DNA of 35,847 nucleotides, taken from the IMG/VR virus record IMGVR_UViG_3300036766_001264, positions 1 through 35,847 of that record. One strand, written 5' to 3'. Every line of letters begins with the position of its first letter. Within the stretch, counting starts at the first letter, position 1. Both the position numbers and the translations under genes were made by a program. This stretch comes from a virus. A model generated the notes under the pieces. The model searched no databases. It was not told the DNA's origin and saw only the letters and a program-made list of their open reading frames with translations. Positions 579-35,847 of the stretch are shown in pieces.

Positions 579-785
579 TCACTTTTTCCCGGACGGATGT
601 TCATTGATCAGATCGATGAATTCAAATACATCGCCATTGGTGATTTTCCTGACTCGATTTAGCATATGCTGCGAGGGTTTCTGACCAGCCATCCAATGCT
701 GAATATACGTACGATTGGTTTCTACCAATTTTGCAAAAGAAGTAATCGTCATGTTCTTCTCGAATAACCATCGTCTAAGATTCAT
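579..785 (-). CDS. Cro-like XRE-family helix-turn-helix repressor
   Basis: A 68-residue protein made almost entirely of a Cro/C1-type helix-turn-helix domain: residues 12-33 (MTITSFAKLVETNRTYIQHW) carry the turn and recognition helix, followed by two predicted helices. It has the size of a phage Cro. The start at 785 is preceded by AAAGGAG five bases upstream. The gene is divergent from recT and shares its promoter region (803-831), so repression of that promoter is likely. It is the leading candidate for binding the CACATGTG/ACATATGT palindromes found in many promoters here, although the ribbon-helix-helix protein at 13849 is an alternative. Its stop codon overlaps the right end of the IS605 element, see findings. 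DNA-binding class is clear; target and role are inferred. Confidence 0.8.
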   Translation of the reverse strand: MNLRRWLFEKNMTITSFAKLVETNRTYIQHWMAGQKPSQHMLNRVRKITNGDVFEFIDLINEHPSGKK

Positions 786-802: not shown

Positions 803-831
803 TTGACTAGAACTGACACATATGTTATCAT
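803..831 (+). promoter_or_regulatory. Early promoter of the recT operon with palindromic site
   Basis: TTGACT (803-808), 17-nt spacer, TATCAT (826-831). The spacer contains ACATATGT, a one-step variant of the CACATGTG palindrome seen in five other promoter spacers. It points at recT (start 902, leader about 65 nt). An apparent coding start at 803 is the -35 box itself. Confidence 0.75.
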
Positions 832-901
832 ACGACATGTTGAAGGGAAAAGCAATGAAACTCCCTCAGGCCTCGCAAATATAAGAAATAAATTGGAGAA
901 A

Positions 902-1720
902 ATGAACACATTAACTTTACAAAATCAACAATCATTCATCCCGAAACAGAGCGAAATGGAACAGTTCATTAGCATTGCTACTGTATTAGCTACTTGCCCG
1001 TTCTATGCAAAAATGGGAGCTGGAGGAGTGCTAGCAATTTATCTAGCGGCCCGAGAGTTGGGACTCCCTCCAATGATGTGCCTCAACAAAGGTATGCATG
1101 TCATCGAAGGAGCTGTGACGCTTTCTGCTCAGCTCATGAATATGCTGATCGTGAATAAGGGTCATCGAGCGGATGTGCTCTATTTAACGGCGGAAGGTTG
1201 CAAGATCCGATTTGTTAGATGCGATCGCCAGGAAGGGAAGGGGGATGCTTTTGAATATGAATTTACACTAGCAGACGCACAAAGAGCTGGCTATATGTCA
1301 AAAGATAATTGGAAAAAATCTCCGAGAGATATGTTTTACAGTCGTTGTCTAAGTGGAGGAGCAAGGAAGTTCATGCCCGACGCTTTGATGAACTGCTACG
1401 TGCTTGGAGAGATGCCAGGAGACGAAAAAATACAGGACAACGTAGAAACACCTTCGCCAGTGAATGACGCGATCTTAGAGTCTCCTAAGTCCATTTCAGA
1501 GCCTCTAGCCGTGATAACGGAAATGCAAATGGGACAACTCATCGATGCTATTGGCCAAAATGATGAGTACAAAGCTAGACTGCTAACGCATTACAAAATC
1601 CCAGATCTATCGAAGCTTGAGGCTCGAAGATTCAAGGCAGCTCTGGATTCAGCTACTCGCAATGCACAGAAAAATAAAATTATGATACAGACAGAAATAG
1701 ATATGTCATCGGAGCTGTGA
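902..1720 (+). CDS. recT: RecT-family single-strand annealing protein
   Basis: A 272-residue protein that matches the RecT family in length and pattern: an N-terminal stretch with KMGAGGVLAIYLAARELGLP, a core with EGAVTLSAQLMNMLI and a basic segment ending in YSRCLSGGARKFMPD. RecT proteins anneal complementary single strands during phage recombination and usually work with a 5'-3' exonuclease. The start at 902 was preferred over the upstream TTG at 803 because TTGGAG lies just before the ATG, the region 803-901 is promoter and leader, and the extra 33 residues look random. The last third (after about residue 170) is a variable linker and C-terminal helix region. It is the first gene of a tightly packed rightward operon (902-2973). 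A classic partner exonuclease is not encoded in the window. Confidence 0.9.
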   Translation: MNTLTLQNQQSFIPKQSEMEQFISIATVLATCPFYAKMGAGGVLAIYLAARELGLPPMMCLNKGMHVIEGAVTLSAQLMNMLIVNKGHRADVLYLTAEGCKIRFVRCDRQEGKGDAFEYEFTLADAQRAGYMSKDNWKKSPRDMFYSRCLSGGARKFMPDALMNCYVLGEMPGDEKIQDNVETPSPVNDAILESPKSISEPLAVITEMQMGQLIDAIGQNDEYKARLLTHYKIPDLSKLEARRFKAALDSATRNAQKNKIMIQTEIDMSSEL

Positions 1721-1952: not shown

Positions 1953-2181
1953 GGAAGCTCTGCAAGAGTTTTTCTACAAACAGAACATCATTAAGTCGAA
2001 TCGTCCCCCCTCAATTTTTGATCATCGAGTGGAGGTGGGATCCTCTTGGATTAATAAAATAGAAAATGATGTCTACGTCCTGAAAGGCAAAAATGCTATC
2101 TGGGAAAAAGATGAGGATCTTACGGAACAATTTAAACATGAAACATTTATAATCAAGCAAAAAGTTTATGGTCACGATTAA
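1927..2181 (+). CDS. Small hypothetical protein of the recombination operon
   Basis: 84 residues; overlaps the preceding gene by 26 bases and the following one by 14. The N-terminus is a basic amphipathic helix (WIKKIIKEALQEFFYKQ), the rest a mixed stretch with several aromatic residues (SSWINKIENDVYVLKGKNAI). No family recognised. The overlaps on both sides and the lack of another open frame in this stretch support that it is translated. Confidence 0.6.
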   Translation: MQWIKKIIKEALQEFFYKQNIIKSNRPPSIFDHRVEVGSSWINKIENDVYVLKGKNAIWEKDEDLTEQFKHETFIIKQKVYGHD

Positions 2182-4537: not shown

Positions 4538-5329
4538 TCAAGCGATCGTCCAGTTCCCCTGAACCCCTCTGGCTATCCAGACGGTATTTGTCGCACTGTA
4601 GGTCAAAGTAAGGGCATTCCCGATCGCTGTGTTAGTCACTGTACCACCAGCCGAAGAGGCGGAGCCTCCGATTCGGATGATCTGGGTACCAGCAGCGGTA
4701 ATCACAACCGCACTCGCCGTGTTGCATTGGAAAACAATGGTGGTTCCAGTGCTGGGAGAGGCGGGAAGCGTTGCGGTGGAAGCGCCAATGAGTGAATATC
4801 CATTTGCTGTAACTGCCGTAAATACGCCGCTAGTCTCTGACCAAGTTAATCCTTCTCCACTAACAGCGATTGTAATCGAGCCTGCGCCATTAGTTATACT
4901 GATTCCAGCGCCTTCGGTAATCGTTGCAAGTACTGGTGTTGTGCCAGTGCTACCAATAACGATCTGTCCATTTGTTGCTACTCCAAGGGAAGCAACAGCA
5001 TTGGCAGCCCCGCCTATCAATGTTCCATACTGCGTTACCGCATTAGCGGTAATTGCCGAAGTGCCATTTCCTGTAAGAATGCCTGTTAGTGTAACTGCTC
5101 CAGTACCACCGCCGGCGACGACTGCTGTACCAAACGTAGGATTTAGACTAACGCCCTGGCTAATTACTGGAATTCCGCTAGTTGATGAAGGACTTACCGA
5201 CGCAACAGCATTTGCAGCATCTCCAATGAGCAGTGCGTATCGAGTCACTGGACTACCAGTCCATACGCCAACACTTGAAAGCGTCTGTATCCCTGCACTA
5301 GTAGCATTTAGGCTATTATCAAATGGCAT
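4538..5329 (-). CDS. Tail-fibre-like protein with repeat module and beta-sandwich-like C-terminus
   Basis: 263 residues. Residues about 25-85 contain the same ISQG...FGTAVVAGGGTG repeat found in the genes at 3387 and 8016. The C-terminal 100 residues (from LTWSETSGVFTAVTANG to QGNWTIA) resemble the C-terminus of the 8016 protein (from LTWSTTSSTTIAL to VGNWTVV), with the shared motif ATLPASP in the middle. This is the second C-terminal module type in the array, distinct from the glycine-rich one. The start ATG overlaps the stop of the 58-residue gene upstream (TAATG). Confidence 0.72.
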   Translation of the reverse strand: MPFDNSLNATSAGIQTLSSVGVWTGSPVTRYALLIGDAANAVASVSPSSTSGIPVISQGVSLNPTFGTAVVAGGGTGAVTLTGILTGNGTSAITANAVTQYGTLIGGAANAVASLGVATNGQIVIGSTGTTPVLATITEGAGISITNGAGSITIAVSGEGLTWSETSGVFTAVTANGYSLIGASTATLPASPSTGTTIVFQCNTASAVVITAAGTQIIRIGGSASSAGGTVTNTAIGNALTLTYSATNTVWIARGVQGNWTIA

Positions 5330-16049: not shown

Positions 16050-16078
16050 TTGACTAAAATAGCACATGTGTGTAACAT
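16050..16078 (+). promoter_or_regulatory. Promoter with CACATGTG operator
   Basis: TTGACT (16050-16055), 17-nt spacer, TAACAT (16073-16078). The spacer ends in GCACATGTGTG (16062-16072). It is nearly identical to the promoter at 31753, with the same TTGACTAAA and TAGCACATGTGTG parts. It drives the small membrane protein gene at 16103, after a leader with AAAGGAG. Confidence 0.8.
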
Positions 16079-29730: not shown

Positions 29731-31266
29731 TCAAATCCTTGTTCGTCTCGACTCTACCGCAACCTTGTGTTTCTCCATAGAACCTTTTAGATTTCCTACA
29801 GTTTCTATGTGCGAAACGCCTGAACAACAATATTGAAAACAGTCGGCAAAATTGCTCGACGTATCATGATAAGGTTCGTCTAGATATTTTCCATATTGCT
29901 CGCTCCACTTTTTTCGATATTTACTAATCTGATCGAGAAAAGGCTTCACACGAGATAAGTTAAAAACGCAACGTTCAAATTTGAGTTTTGCATTAGAAAT
30001 GCTGAGGTTCTTGTCAGTGCGCTTGAGTACCACAAATTTTGTATTTGTCTGCGCGAAAAGCCGCCGGAAATCCTTTTCATACGTATTTTCGACGACAATA
30101 CCGTCTCTGTGTGCAGCATCATGGGGTAAAAATATTGTGTGGTACAGATATTTTTTATCTTGCTGTAGGTATCTCGCATAGAAATCCACCCCCTTGTTTT
30201 TGTCCTCATAGTAGTCAACAACCCGTATCTCCCCGTGAATCACCTGAAAAAATGCCATAACGGTTAGATCATTTACACCTATATCCATAGCTACATAGAG
30301 ATGATCGATGGGATCATATGGGTTCGTGGAGAGACAACGGCCAGATTGATATGCCGCTTCGATGCATTGCTGAAAGTAATAGGCATCAGAAGAACTCAGG
30401 AACGCCTCTGAAACAGTGGATGGGTATTCCTGTTTCATCTTTTCTTGCAGCAGAGATCTCTGATGAGCGTACCATTGGCGCTGCATCCTATTAATGGTAT
30501 GCCCTGTTTCCTTCTGGATTTTGTCGAAATAATCCGTCAGAGTGGTATCAATGGTTACAGGCTGGGTCATTGTAAACGCAGGTTCTAGCATCCATGGATA
30601 AAATAGTAAATGGTAATCCAGCGGCGATAGGTCTGTATTTCCTCTTTGTGCGGCCTGGTTAACCATATCCACAAAAAAGCCATCATTCCCTTCACCCGTA
30701 CTTTCTATGGTTATCTTGCCTGTGAGAGGGACTGTTTGAATGGTACCAGTGATGACCTCCTCAGCTTTGAGGGGCGAACGCGCACATGTTTTCCCAAACT
30801 CGCTGACTAGAATGTTATGATACGTTCCTCCTCGCAGGCTAGTATCGACTCGAAGAAAAGATCCATTATTCAAGGTAAGCTCTTTCGCTGACCGTTGCAC
30901 GATGCCCATTCTCTGCGTAATAGCTGGATGCAAATTGTCGATCGCATGGCCGATGATACGCTTGAAAATGTGCTGAGCATGTTCTAGAGAATAGCTAACG
31001 ATGCCTCCTGCCATGTTACTGGTAAAAATGATGTCATCGAGCAAGTCAAGAACTGCAAATGTACTCATACCCATGCGACGAGCCTTTAGGATCAGCTTAC
31101 GAGGATGTGAACATTGATATACCAGTTTCTGAACACGATTCATCCGAAATTGTACGGAATTCCCATTGGTGTCGACAACATGATAGATATTGTTGAGACG
31201 CCAAGATTTATCGCAAAAGAGTTCTAGAGGATCAGGTAGGTTTTTGGATGTTGTATTTTTTCTGAT
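29731..31266 (-). CDS. terL: Terminase large subunit
   Basis: The ATPase part begins LILKARRMGMSTF (Walker A-like), with ILVSEFGKTCARSP as Walker B region. The nuclease part has MDIGVNDLTVMAF (first Asp), then TIFLPHDAAHRDGI (second), then SNFADCFQYCC (third). The first ATG, at 31143, gives 470 residues, but the frame is open upstream to 31284 and the stretch from about 31245 (LPDPLELFCDKSWRLNN, then YHVVDTNGNSVQF) looks like the normal terminase N-terminus. No ATG, GTG or TTG exists there; ATC at 31266 is the only near-start. The end given (31266) is therefore tentative. The gene packages phage DNA using ATP. Confidence 0.88.
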   Translation of the reverse strand: MRKNTTSKNLPDPLELFCDKSWRLNNIYHVVDTNGNSVQFRMNRVQKLVYQCSHPRKLILKARRMGMSTFAVLDLLDDIIFTSNMAGGIVSYSLEHAQHIFKRIIGHAIDNLHPAITQRMGIVQRSAKELTLNNGSFLRVDTSLRGGTYHNILVSEFGKTCARSPLKAEEVITGTIQTVPLTGKITIESTGEGNDGFFVDMVNQAAQRGNTDLSPLDYHLLFYPWMLEPAFTMTQPVTIDTTLTDYFDKIQKETGHTINRMQRQWYAHQRSLLQEKMKQEYPSTVSEAFLSSSDAYYFQQCIEAAYQSGRCLSTNPYDPIDHLYVAMDIGVNDLTVMAFFQVIHGEIRVVDYYEDKNKGVDFYARYLQQDKKYLYHTIFLPHDAAHRDGIVVENTYEKDFRRLFAQTNTKFVVLKRTDKNLSISNAKLKFERCVFNLSRVKPFLDQISKYRKKWSEQYGKYLDEPYHDTSSNFADCFQYCCSGVSHIETVGNLKGSMEKHKVAVESRRTRI

Positions 31267-31729
31267 ACTCGACCACCATTTCTGCTAGGTTTTGCTGTTG
31301 TTCAATTTCCTGTTTAGTGCGTCGGGCAGCTTCGCGGTCGGCGATTGCCTCCTCATGTTCGAGCAGGGTTGAATCATACATGGAGAGATATCTACTCCCA
31401 TAAACGCTCGGAAAAGCTTTGTTTTGCACTATGCGTTTGTGCATCCACGCCTTGCCGCGAGCGTATATGCTCAAGAAGCTCTCACGTAGAGTTATGATTG
31501 CCCATTGTTTTGGACATAATCCTTTTATTTCTGAATAAAACTGAGAGAAATTAGCAATAATGAAACTAGGATCCTTGTCACATTCTTTCATCCACTCCAA
31601 AAAATCCTGACCGATTTCGAGGATATATTCCTCAGAAAATTGCATAGGGGGACGTCCGGATCCGGCCGCGAATTTATTCCCTTTAGGAGCTGTGAAAATT
31701 TTTCCTTTAAGGTTATCTATTTGAGCCAT
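31232..31729 (-). CDS. terS: Terminase small subunit
   Basis: 165 residues, first gene of the virion operon. The N-terminus is basic and flexible (GKIFTAPKGNKFAAGSGRPP); then comes a helical DNA-binding core (EYILEIGQDFLEWMKECDKD; YSEIKGLCPKQWAIITLRES) and a charged C-terminal helix (AARRTKQEIEQQQNLAEMVV). Identity rests on location before terL and helical pattern. AGAGGG before ATG. The 3' end overlaps the terL N-terminal region in another frame. Confidence 0.75.
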   Translation of the reverse strand: MAQIDNLKGKIFTAPKGNKFAAGSGRPPMQFSEEYILEIGQDFLEWMKECDKDPSFIIANFSQFYSEIKGLCPKQWAIITLRESFLSIYARGKAWMHKRIVQNKAFPSVYGSRYLSMYDSTLLEHEEAIADREAARRTKQEIEQQQNLAEMVVEYQKKYNIQKPT

Positions 31730-31748: not shown

Positions 31749-31781
31749 ATTATTGACTAAATAGCACATGTGTGCAATGAT
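31749..31781. promoter_or_regulatory. Divergent promoters sharing a CACATGTG operator (late switch)
   Basis: Rightward: TTGACT (31753-31758), 17 nt, AATGAT (31776-31781). Leftward: TTGCAC (complement of 31772-31777), 17 nt, AATAAT (complement of 31749-31754), only about 20 bases before the terS start. The palindrome CACATGTG (31764-31771 region) is in the centre of both. One bound protein would silence both the virion operon and the small rightward genes. Confidence 0.7.
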
Positions 31782-33567: not shown

Positions 33568-33925
33568 TCATTTAATGAATGATCTATGAATTCGTGCTAG
33601 AGAGGCCTTTTGCAGATCGGATAGAGAGCTATATTTCTCAAATTGCTCAGCGAGAGAATTGATGAAATCCATGTTGAATTTTGGATTTGTTTTGGCATAT
33701 TTATTCAGATTTGAAAACATGGTCCTGATCTTCTGGTGATCTTTGGGTAAATTTCCGGTGCGAGGAAGCGGGCCTCGAGGAGCGAAGCGTCGCAAGCCTA
33801 ATTTCATGCGCTCCTTGAAGCAGTTGCATGAGTTCGCCGCTACCGCCCTGATCTGGATGCAACCTGAGTGCAAGCTTGCGGAATAGCTTTTTGCATTCTT
33901 CTTCGGACTGACATAAGTAAAACAT
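33568..33925 (-). pseudogene. J-domain-like (DnaJ) protein gene with a frameshift
   Basis: The first frame, from ATG 33925, gives CKKLFRKLALRLHPDQGGSG, the second helix and HPD loop of a J-domain, followed by ELMQLLQ; then the sense is lost. The continuation is in the +1 frame: FKERMKLGLRRFAPRGPLPR to DLQKASLARIHRSFIK, ending at 33568. The switch lies at about 33800-33822. Together they would make about 120 residues. HPD motifs stimulate Hsp70-type ATPases. The J-domain's first helix is short or missing. Either the gene is broken, or the frameshift is programmed or a base-calling error. The -10 box of its promoter ends two bases before the ATG, which is also odd. Confidence 0.6.
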
Positions 33926-33927
33926 GA

Positions 33928-33955
33928 CTTATACTAGCACATGTGTGACATTCAA
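33928..33955 (-). promoter_or_regulatory. Promoter with CACATGTG operator before the J-domain-like gene
   Basis: Leftward TTGAAT (complement of 33950-33955), 16-nt spacer with TCACACATGTGC, TATAAG (complement of 33928-33933). It overlaps the 3' end of the replication gene (stop at 33952). The expected start of RNA lies just inside the apparent ATG of the next gene. Confidence 0.72.
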
Positions 33956-34998
33956 GGAAATCGCCTGTTTATACCATCTAAATTGTGTAAAGCTCTGATA
34001 AATTCGTCTAGATTTGGCATGTTGAGCGGGAGATCTTTTTTTGTCTTAGGACATTGGACATATTTTTCATGCAATTCAAGAGCTGACTTTCGGATTTCTA
34101 TGAAAATCTTAGCTTCTTGGCGATTACGAACTGTATTTTCGTCCACGAGGACTTGAGAGTCTTTCAGAGCGTTGCGGAAAAATGCAATTTTGGAATTCTT
34201 GAAGGTTCCTCCTTTGGCAATATGATTTTCCAGGTGTACTAGACAGTCTTTCAATTTCTTTTCAGTGTTCTCACGAATGATGATAGTCAAAGTCTCTTCG
34301 GTAGCCCCTAGATTGGCCTCAGTTAACTTATCTAGCAGTGGTCTCTGTGACGGCATGAGTGGGTACTTCTGTTTGCTTGGAGAGCCTGCCAGGGGCCTTT
34401 GCGAGGGTTTCTGCTGAGGAGGCGAGAGGGTTTCCTTCGATCCTGCAGGCTGCTTTGCGCGTTTCGTGCCAGCGACTGCCTCCTCTCGCGCCGTGTGCGA
34501 AGGCAATGACCCCAGCGACTGCCCTGGCGCCTCGCCCGAGTCACTGGAGTCATTGCTCTTGCAATCTCTGCAAGAGTCGATGACTCCAGTGACTATATGG
34601 GATTTATTATCTGGTATTGGTGTGGCAATTTTGCCTTTCGTATGGCAATTTTGCCTTTCGTAAGATTTAATTGAATTCTCATCTACCTGGAAGGCTTCTT
34701 CGTCGGCAAACGCATACCACAAAGTTTTGTCGATCGGATTCTTATTAAATTTTCCGGTGATCAGGACTTTTAGCTTTACAAGATTTTCACAAATACGCCT
34801 TACTTTTTCGAAATTCCAGTAAGGAAAATGCGCTTGTATTTCTCGTCTCGTTTGATAAGTCCAGCATCTTCCCTCTCGAATATTCCTCTTAAGTCTTCGA
34901 TTAAAAGTGATCCAAAATTGAAAATGGTGAATAAGTATGGCTTCATTTACTCCATATAGAGCCGCGAAATCCGTTGAAAATGAATGATGTACGCTCAT
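33952..34998 (-). CDS. Phage replication initiator (winged-helix N-terminus)
   Basis: 348 residues. The N-terminal domain (1-100) has the plan of phage replication organisers and related plasmid proteins: YGVNEAILIHHFQFWITFNR, then RCWTYQTRREIQAHFPYW, then FEKVRRICENLVKLKVLITG (winged helix and recognition helix). Residues ~125-225 form a Ser/Pro/Gln/Lys-rich linker of higher GC content (SPPQQKPSQRPLAGSPSK). The C-terminus (240-348) is helical (ENTEKKLKDCLVHLENHIAK) and may bind a helicase. The linker DNA carries the origin-like repeats (34539-34594, 34623-34662), as lambda gene O does. AGGAG before ATG. Helicase and polymerase are absent, so host enzymes would be used. Confidence 0.72.
   Translation of the reverse strand: MSVHHSFSTDFAALYGVNEAILIHHFQFWITFNRRLKRNIREGRCWTYQTRREIQAHFPYWNFEKVRRICENLVKLKVLITGKFNKNPIDKTLWYAFADEEAFQVDENSIKSYERQNCHTKGKIATPIPDNKSHIVTGVIDSCRDCKSNDSSDSGEAPGQSLGSLPSHTAREEAVAGTKRAKQPAGSKETLSPPQQKPSQRPLAGSPSKQKYPLMPSQRPLLDKLTEANLGATEETLTIIIRENTEKKLKDCLVHLENHIAKGGTFKNSKIAFFRNALKDSQVLVDENTVRNRQEAKIFIEIRKSALELHEKYVQCPKTKKDLPLNMPNLDEFIRALHNLDGINRRFP
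34539..34594. repeat. Nested inverted repeat within replication gene (origin-like)
   Basis: AGTCACTGGAGTCAT (34539-34553) and its exact complement ATGACTCCAGTGACT (34580-34594) form 15 bp. Inside, CTCTTGCA (34556-34563) and TGCAAGAG (34569-34576) form 8 bp around ATCTC, with a 2/3-nt internal loop between the stems. It could extrude as a cruciform or fold in RNA. Confidence 0.8.
34623..34662. repeat. Perfect 2 x 20-bp tandem repeat within replication gene (iteron-like)
   Basis: Two identical 20-bp units starting TGGCAATTTTGCCTTTCGTA lie back to back. Each contains the inverted pair GGCAA / TTGCC with a 2-nt gap. Because 20 is not a multiple of three, the two copies encode different residues, so the identity is kept at the DNA level rather than for the protein. 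Confidence 0.82.
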
Positions 34999-35014
34999 AT
35001 TCTACTCCTATTGG

Positions 35015-35043
35015 TTGACAGAAGTCACACACATGTGATAAGC
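35015..35043 (+). promoter_or_regulatory. Strong promoter with CACATGTG operator, upstream of structured RNA
   Basis: TTGACA (35015-35020, consensus), 16-nt spacer with TCACACACATGTG, GATAAG (35037-35042), or with 17-nt spacing ATAAGC. The palindrome CACATGTG is at 35030-35037. It points right, towards the RNA at about 35049-35219. The same region must also hold the leftward promoter of the replication gene, which I could not define. Confidence 0.75.
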
Positions 35044-35048
35044 TCTTG

Positions 35049-35219
35049 CTCCTGCCTGTTTATGCTTTTGTTGTTTTTGTGAGGTGCTGTTACTCCTAAT
35101 AGGTAACGATCACTTGCATTTTCACAAAAACAATGCTAGCATTGCAGTCTAGAGAAGGGGTTTAGACTTCTCGGTGTTTTAGTCGAGCCTTAGGGGTTAT
35201 TTACCTAGGGCTTTTTTTT
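35049..35219 (+). ncRNA. Structured small RNA with own promoter and terminator
   Basis: An approximately 170-nt transcript is predicted between the promoter at 35015 and the terminator at 35186-35219. No convincing ORF is inside. A perfect 12-bp stem joins TTGTTTTTGTGA (35071-35082) and TCACAAAAACAA (35122-35133). The loop between holds a smaller hairpin (GTTAC / GTAAC, about 35089-35106). Then come the palindrome AATGCTAGCATT (35132-35143), a 6-bp stem GAGAAG / CTTCTC (35152-35157, 35167-35172) and the terminator. It matches no RNA class I recognise. The 5' end is inferred. Confidence 0.65.
35186..35219 (+). terminator. Intrinsic terminator of the structured RNA
   Basis: Stem AGCCTTAGG (35186-35194) with CCTAGGGCT (35204-35212), nine pairs with one wobble, followed by eight T residues (35212-35219). 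Confidence 0.9.
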
Positions 35220-35433
35220 ACACTCTAATAAAATCTCCATTAAATAGTAAAATCTTTCACATTCTCATAGGGAAATGCCGATCCTGAGAATTGCACTCAG
35301 TCATCAAAAAATGGATTTTTAGGTCATTAAGAAGGGCCGCTTGAGGAGACTCCGTTCAAAAAGTAGCGGCACTGCTAGCGTCTATAGCTAACTTAGATCG
35401 GCAGATTCATTGTGATTCTTAAAAATATCTTAC
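35220..35433. other. Non-coding spacer before the IS605 element
   Basis: No convincing gene. Only weak inverted repeats are seen: CTGAG / CTCAG at about 35284-35300 and GCCGCT (35336-35341) with AGCGGC (35365-35370). The spacer ends in TTAC (35430-35433), a plausible IS605-type insertion target just left of the proposed element end. Confidence 0.6.
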
Positions 35434-35460
35434 GTCAACAGGAATGTTTTTATCCCTGGA

Positions 35461-35500
35461 CGCGAGAAAACTCGGCCGTTCAGGGCCGAGATGAATCGCG
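35461..35500. repeat. IS605 left-end hairpin
   Basis: A perfect 7-bp stem CTCGGCC (35471-35477) / GGCCGAG (35484-35490) with a 6-nt loop, flanked by outer CGCGA (35461-35465) / TCGCG (35496-35500) across an internal loop. It lies directly 3' of tnpA, as the left subterminal hairpin of IS605 elements does. Confidence 0.7.
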
Positions 35501-35504
35501 CCTT

Positions 35505-35847
35505 TTAGACCCGAGGAGATTCTTGCTGTTCGATATACTGCCGAATTACAGCAAGCGGAGCTCCTCCACATGCTCCTGCAAAATAGCTTGGGGACCAGAG
35601 GCTGCCTCCCCATAAAGCATTCTGGATGGTCGGATGTCCTTTTTTTCGAACCAATCTTGAGGAAACCCCTTTCAGGCTGTTCACCAATTTTGAAACAGAT
35701 ACCTTTGGCGGATATTCGACTAGAAGATGGACGTGATCTCCTTCTCCTTCAACTTCGATCAGCTTGGCTTCGAAGTCAGTACAGATTCCGGTAAAAATGT
35801 CTCTCAACTCATTTAGGGCTCGTAAGGGAATAAATATGCCATTTGGA
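35505..35847 (-). CDS. tnpA: TnpA HUH transposase of IS200/IS605 family (5' truncated by window)
   Basis: The frame stays open to the right window edge, giving 113 residues of a protein that usually has about 130-150. The HUH motif is in GEGDHVHLLVEYPPK, followed by VSKLVNSLKGVSSRLVRKKG, LWSPSYFAGACGGAP and the catalytic Tyr in LAVIRQYIEQQ. These are the standard Y1 transposase lines, all intact. It moves single-stranded DNA of the element by cutting at left and right tetranucleotides. Upstream of the TTG at 35807 the frame continues with IFIPLRALNELRDIF, which fits the family, so that TTG is not the start. Confidence 0.93.
   Translation of the reverse strand, partial: PNGIFIPLRALNELRDIFTGICTDFEAKLIEVEGEGDHVHLLVEYPPKVSVSKLVNSLKGVSSRLVRKKGHPTIQNALWGGSLWSPSYFAGACGGAPLAVIRQYIEQQESPRV

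Follow-up and report, generated by a model that had tools for sequence, protein, structure and literature searches.

A predicted structured RNA divergent from a phage replication gene, with a layout resembling the lambda pO/OOP unit

Plasmid rep genes have counter-transcribed RNAs, such as CopA of R1 and RNAIII of pIP501, and among phages the closest described system is the pO/OOP unit of lambda, whose role in replication has been disputed from the time when a primer function was first suggested for it. The pO and pR promoters of lambda are convergent, and loss of pO raises pR-driven expression and lowers replication (PMC3985674). The OOP RNA is antisense to cII, a role as primer was not upheld, and polymerase interference is favoured by the authors of that work, as OOP leaves the stability of the O-P mRNA unchanged (PMC3985674). 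Lambdoid phages share a 33-bp oop/pO sequence block (PMC3349717). Small phage RNAs that serve phage replication in trans, together with Hfq, are PreS of lambda and VpdS of VP882 (PMC12197685).

Here, we analysed a stretch of viral DNA of 35,847 nucleotides (positions 1 to 35,847 of IMG/VR virus record IMGVR_UViG_3300036766_001264), which is called the window throughout, and in which an earlier note had proposed a structured RNA beside the replication gene. At the level of sequence, the locus shares with lambda a promoter beside the initiator start codon that fires away from the gene, to an intrinsic terminator. Further shared features are a hairpin-bearing short RNA, which in the window is predicted and would lie between the initiator gene and a regulator gene if the contig ends belong to one IS copy, and iterons inside the initiator gene (at 348 in lambda O and about 350 nt into most genes of the clade described below). 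The layout is that of the classical unit, from which the locus differs by its unrelated sequence, its unrelated initiator and its different control. The predicted RNA is about 170 nt long, whereas OOP has 77 nt, and OOP overlaps cII by 55 nt, whereas the window RNA does not overlap the upstream regulator gene. Moreover, the window promoter differs from pO in overlapping the phage's own operator, and an IS insertion separates the regulator from the RNA in the window. No DNA match to lambdoid phages was found in phage records, nor any sequence similarity to pO/OOP, and the window initiator has no detectable homology to lambda O (hhalign probability 0.1%). Since the initiators are not detectably homologous, what is shared is a layout, and common descent is not implied.

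Anatomy of the predicted RNA and its promoter

The predicted small RNA extends from 35049 to 35222 on the plus strand, with an approximate 5' end. The perfect 12-bp stem, the further stems and the terminator that had been described within about 180 bases were all found in this region. The 12-bp stem (35071-35082 with 35122-35133) is the core of a long main hairpin (35062-35142, plus strand) whose arms, 35062-35082 and 35122-35142, are 81% complementary, and which encloses an inner hairpin, GTTAC/GTAAC, at 35089-35107. A small hairpin, GAGAAG/CTTCTC (35152-35172, plus strand), follows, and then the intrinsic terminator (35185-35219, plus strand) with its stem at 35185-35213, a T8 tract at 35212-35219 and a dG of -15.1. 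The fold of 35046-35222 reaches -57.1 kcal/mol (z = -4.36), and none of 200 dinucleotide shuffles was as good; without the terminator, the z value is -3.2. The value of -57.1 belongs to the divergent strand, compared with -40.2 on the opposite strand. The region had also been said to hold no convincing ORF, and indeed the longest ORF in the RNA has 22 amino acids and a GTG start, without a recognisable Shine-Dalgarno sequence. A short peptide gene was ruled out, as no ORF with a ribosome site lies within the RNA.

The statement that no RNA family matches holds for Rfam, in which neither gathering nor relaxed thresholds gave a family for the window RNA (the top sub-threshold matches, to microRNA families, are not meaningful), but the analogy with lambda OOP had been missed. 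No DNA homologue was found in phages, plasmids, E. coli genomes or 14 related records, one of these comparisons being without a positive control. When viral contigs were scanned with an 18-mer, the sole match was an unrelated sequence, apparently coding. The inner loop carries a CUAA motif of the YUNR type; motifs of this type are short and frequently present by chance.

The promoter of the RNA (35015-35044, plus strand) has TTGACA at 35015-35020 and two options for the -10 element, GATAAG at 35037-35042 (spacer 16) and TAAGCT at 35039-35044 (spacer 18). The pair TTGACA and GATAAG was already given in the earlier note, and both were found, but they are not the best promoter in the window, as had been claimed there. 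By position weight matrix (PWM) the promoter ranks 7 of 71,632 window positions with the better -10 and 37 as GATAAG, and the top rank belongs to TTGACT-17-TATCAT at 803-831 (plus strand), before a RecT-like gene. Consensus promoter scans showed no excess in the region of the RNA.

The operator TATCACATGTGTG (35028-35040, minus strand) lies inside the spacer and -10 element of the RNA promoter. Its core, CACATGTG, occurs in five exact copies in the window against 0.26 expected under a third-order model. All five copies extend to TANCACATGTGTG, the other extended sites being at 16063, 31765, 33546 and 33938, and each site overlaps promoter-like sequence. A variant, CACATATG (814-830), is found inside the best promoter, between the Cro-like and RecT-like genes. 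The suggestion that the RNA promoter has its operator in common with other promoters is thus borne out at the level of sequence by the five extended sites. Because these sites recur in promoter-like sequences, the RNA promoter probably belongs to the set controlled by the phage repressor, and the Cro-like protein may be the binder of the putative operator.

Another operator-bearing promoter, TTGACT-17-AATGAT at 31753-31781 (plus strand), points rightward and is divergent from the gene at 31232-31729; the 280 nt that follow it hold very short ORFs only.

The replication gene and its flanks

The replication initiation gene (33952-34998, minus strand; phrog_11233, DnaD-like helicase loader phrog_6493) is divergent from the RNA. 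Its Shine-Dalgarno sequence, AGGAG, is at 35005-35009, and the predicted RNA starts about 50 nt from its start codon. A candidate replication origin (34539-34656) lies inside the gene and consists of a perfect 15-bp inverted repeat (34539-34553/34580-34594) and two 20-bp palindromic iterons (34617-34656). Directly downstream of the gene, a small J-domain (DnaJ-like) protein is encoded at 33701-33925 (minus strand); its gene has an operator-bearing promoter of its own, and its Pfam DnaJ match (E = 1.2e-4) is just under the curated cut-off.

The record is classed as linear, and no end repeats were found. Both of its ends fall in an IS200/IS605 element, which encodes its Y1 transposase at the right end of the record and its TnpB at the left. 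The left part of the element, with tnpA on the minus strand (35434-35847), is now placed between the RNA and the Cro-like gene, and the right part, with tnpB, takes up positions 1-582. The gene of the Cro-like HTH repressor (583-785 or 579-785, minus strand), which lies beside the RecT-like gene (803-1720, plus strand), probably preceded the replication gene until the IS inserted. When TTAC at 35430-35433 is joined to base 583, an in-frame stop of the Cro-like gene appears by eye at the junction, which fits the insertion of a single IS copy at TTAC immediately behind this gene. The record lacks the middle of the IS, and we therefore infer the ancestral order of Cro-like gene, RNA region on the opposite strand and replication gene, an order that holds if the contig ends belong to one IS copy. 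In a related locus, L028, the Cro-like gene, the RNA and the replication gene stand intact in this order. The predicted end of the RNA (about 35222) and the restored Cro-like stop (about 35430) leave a gap of about 210 nt, with no overlap. A guide RNA of TnpB was considered and set aside: such RNAs are located at the 3' end of tnpB, not at 35015-35219.

Divergent units beside related replication genes

Relatives were collected by alignment of the N-terminal domain of the replication protein (80 viral and 17 genome loci), and the 300 nt upstream of the replication gene were scanned on the divergent strand, a terminator being counted when its dG was -12 kcal/mol or lower and a T tract was present. 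Among the 27 distinct members of the clade, a terminator is present on the divergent strand in 20 and on the sense strand in 2, with control rates of 3.7% in shuffles and 7.4% elsewhere in the same loci. In 13 of 27 the terminator is accompanied by a suitably spaced promoter (sense strand 0 of 27, shuffles 1.0%, other places 0.7%). Over all 59 loci the numbers are 33 with a terminator and 18 with promoter and terminator, compared with about 7% and 1%. The significance of the clade enrichment (Fisher p = 8e-7, binomial p about 1e-19) is optimistic, the loci being related. The scan thresholds were chosen after the sequences had been inspected, which favours the result; the controls were scored with the same thresholds. 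Seven of the 27 members are without a strong divergent terminator, and folding strength across the clade has no strand bias (9 of 17). Given the divergent orientation, a terminator in this place can only stop transcripts that start beside the replication gene or run antisense to it. As a positive control, the same scan was applied to lambda and recovered pO/OOP in its place, with the promoter start at -11 and the terminator end at -84 relative to the start codon of O.

The RNAs of this sequence-diverse clade are unrelated to one another, while the replication proteins are 60-67% identical in their N-terminal domain, and similar units occur in phages of many unrelated hosts. The unit is also present in Vibrio phage 1.213.O, where the promoter starts at -16 and the terminator is at -65, and in Bacillus phage BhaS-171; the same scan found it absent in Pseudoalteromonas virus H6/1. 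Many relatives have an upstream gene that is codirectional with the replication gene (the Cro-like gene in L028), an arrangement that the window also has if the IS is disregarded, and in some (e.g., L013, L020, L022) the upstream gene is divergent. Of the 22 clade genes listed, 16 have iterons, taken as direct repeats of 13-22 nt at a spacing of 15-43 nt, at 325-425 nt from the gene start; such repeats were seen at rates of 0-15% each when the clade genes were codon-shuffled. The recurrent divergent units beside homologous genes, together with the layout of lambda pO/OOP, support the proposal of a stand-alone, replication-linked control RNA, and the copy-number control that had been suggested along with it may be the role of the predicted RNA.

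A subgroup of Flavonifractor phages and relatives (A4, 12 distinct sequences) has a 65-nt RNA of two hairpins, carried by L072, L079, L081-L084, L094, L095, L099, L100, L102, L108 and L109, in which the GGUUUUCAUGCACGAAACC hairpin is almost invariant. In the alignment of these RNAs, 99.6% of cells pair and 11 cells are changed on both sides. None of 500 shuffles came up to the RNAs in covariation score, in the percentage of paired cells or in the count of double-change cells; the number of pairs with double changes is unexceptional (67 of 500 shuffles). The covariation sits in the terminator helix, the 5' hairpin and its loop being almost invariant. Of 240 cells, 239 pair when the divergent strand is folded, 37 of them as G-U, compared with 203 for the rep-sense strand, and from this strand-specific pairing it can be concluded that the divergent strand is the RNA in this subgroup. 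Covariation of stems, which had been named as a check on the RNA, is thus seen in the Flavonifractor subgroup only, the window RNA being without a sequence homologue. Rfam gave no gathering-level match at the site of this RNA in L102, the sole member scanned. Elsewhere in the L102 locus, a Eubacteriales contig, a match to the Rfam skipping-rope RNA lies at 2088-2157 (minus strand; 58.6 bits).

Possible mechanism and competing readings

By analogy with lambda, we lean towards reading the window locus as a pO/OOP-like countertranscript unit. The promoter, under repressor control and immediately before the replication gene as the analogue of lambda O, would fire away from that gene, and the short, highly structured RNA would end at its own terminator. 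Leftward transcription from the Cro-like gene to the replication gene would cross the RNA unit, and since a leftward transcript must do so, promoter and RNA would oppose it, by polymerase interference and/or by duplex formation with RNase III processing. The effect would be less synthesis of the initiator and a tuned transcription across the origin within the gene. The leftward rep promoter is the weakest link of this mechanism: it was not located among the candidates in the window, where those in the rep-sense direction are weak (the best scores 9.0 at -403), and the candidates are varied in relatives. Because the predicted RNA stops short of the regulator gene, a target of the OOP-cII type is unlikely, and a more probable partner is the intercistronic leader in front of the replication gene.

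Antisense RNAs of the CopA/RNAIII kind offer a different reading, in which the rep mRNA starts upstream of the RNA, so that its leader is fully complementary to the RNA, and the action is post-transcriptional, on initiator translation or attenuation, and not promoter interference. The predicted RNA is like these plasmid RNAs in running opposite to rep, starting near its start codon, forming strong stem-loops and having its own terminator, and the CUAA motif of the inner loop, common by chance as it is, and a fast sequence drift that suits a cis partner changing with its target are also in keeping with such a role. However, the window gene is a phage initiator with internal origin iterons, in the window no strong rep promoter was seen upstream of the terminator, and OOP in lambda has no effect on the stability of the O-P mRNA (PMC3985674), so we regard this reading as rather unlikely. 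A replication primer was rejected as first choice, since the replication gene contains the iterons and the RNA is directed away from them; the failure to uphold the primer role of OOP in lambda counts further against it (PMC3985674).

It seems improbable that the RNA is a phage sRNA acting in trans on host or other phage mRNAs and merely placed beside the replication gene. Phage sRNAs of this type exist (PMC12197685), the free-standing unit with its putative phage-repressor operator would suit one, and the 5' hairpin and loop are nearly invariant in the Flavonifractor phages. By analogy, the window RNA would also share with PreS and VpdS the service to phage replication, but those RNAs act in trans with Hfq, whereas the window unit keeps its position and not its sequence; sequences that are unrelated at a kept position, despite the similar N-terminal domains, point to a cis role. 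Alternatively, the inverted repeats could be mainly DNA or rep-leader elements (for initiator binding, a cruciform or an mRNA attenuator), with the divergent promoter and terminator incidental. The unbiased folding energies of the clade and the repeat arms that by eye flank the promoter in some relatives (e.g., L013, L027) are consistent with this, but the strand bias of the terminators, the G-U pairs of A4, which fit the divergent strand only, the stronger fold of the window RNA on that strand and the position of the iterons inside the replication gene, not at the RNA, make it quite improbable. That promoter-like and hairpin sequences came together by chance, without a transcript, would agree with the lack of a promoter excess in consensus scans; the fold z value, the operator in the spacer and the recurrence in relatives leave very little room for it.

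The broad recurrence is the interesting part of the finding. We suggest tentatively, and with more doubt than for the pO/OOP-like reading of the window locus itself, that divergent units of this kind could be a widespread control device, conserved in position and free in sequence, of phages with the origin inside the initiator gene. It would reach far beyond the lambdoids, into phages whose hosts are Firmicutes, Gammaproteobacteria or uncultured, and would be either ancestral or repeatedly invented. If such units recur beside non-homologous initiators, convergent transcription next to an origin-bearing initiator gene would be a general design, and its numerous natural variants, unrelated in sequence, would allow a test of whether the RNA sequence matters or the opposing promoter alone. 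In the open literature, to which the search was largely confined, the recurrence of pO/OOP-like units is apparently unreported, which is weak evidence of novelty.

The IS left end and the target site (35433-35438, minus strand) together form an outward promoter-like sequence, TTGACG-18-CACAAT, directed towards the replication gene, and the IS insertion may be a promoter supply for this gene. In an otherwise different viral contig, L006, the same iteron stretch as that at 34611-34656 of the window is found at 5001-5184, where an IS200/IS605 element closely resembling that of the window directly adjoins it with its right end.
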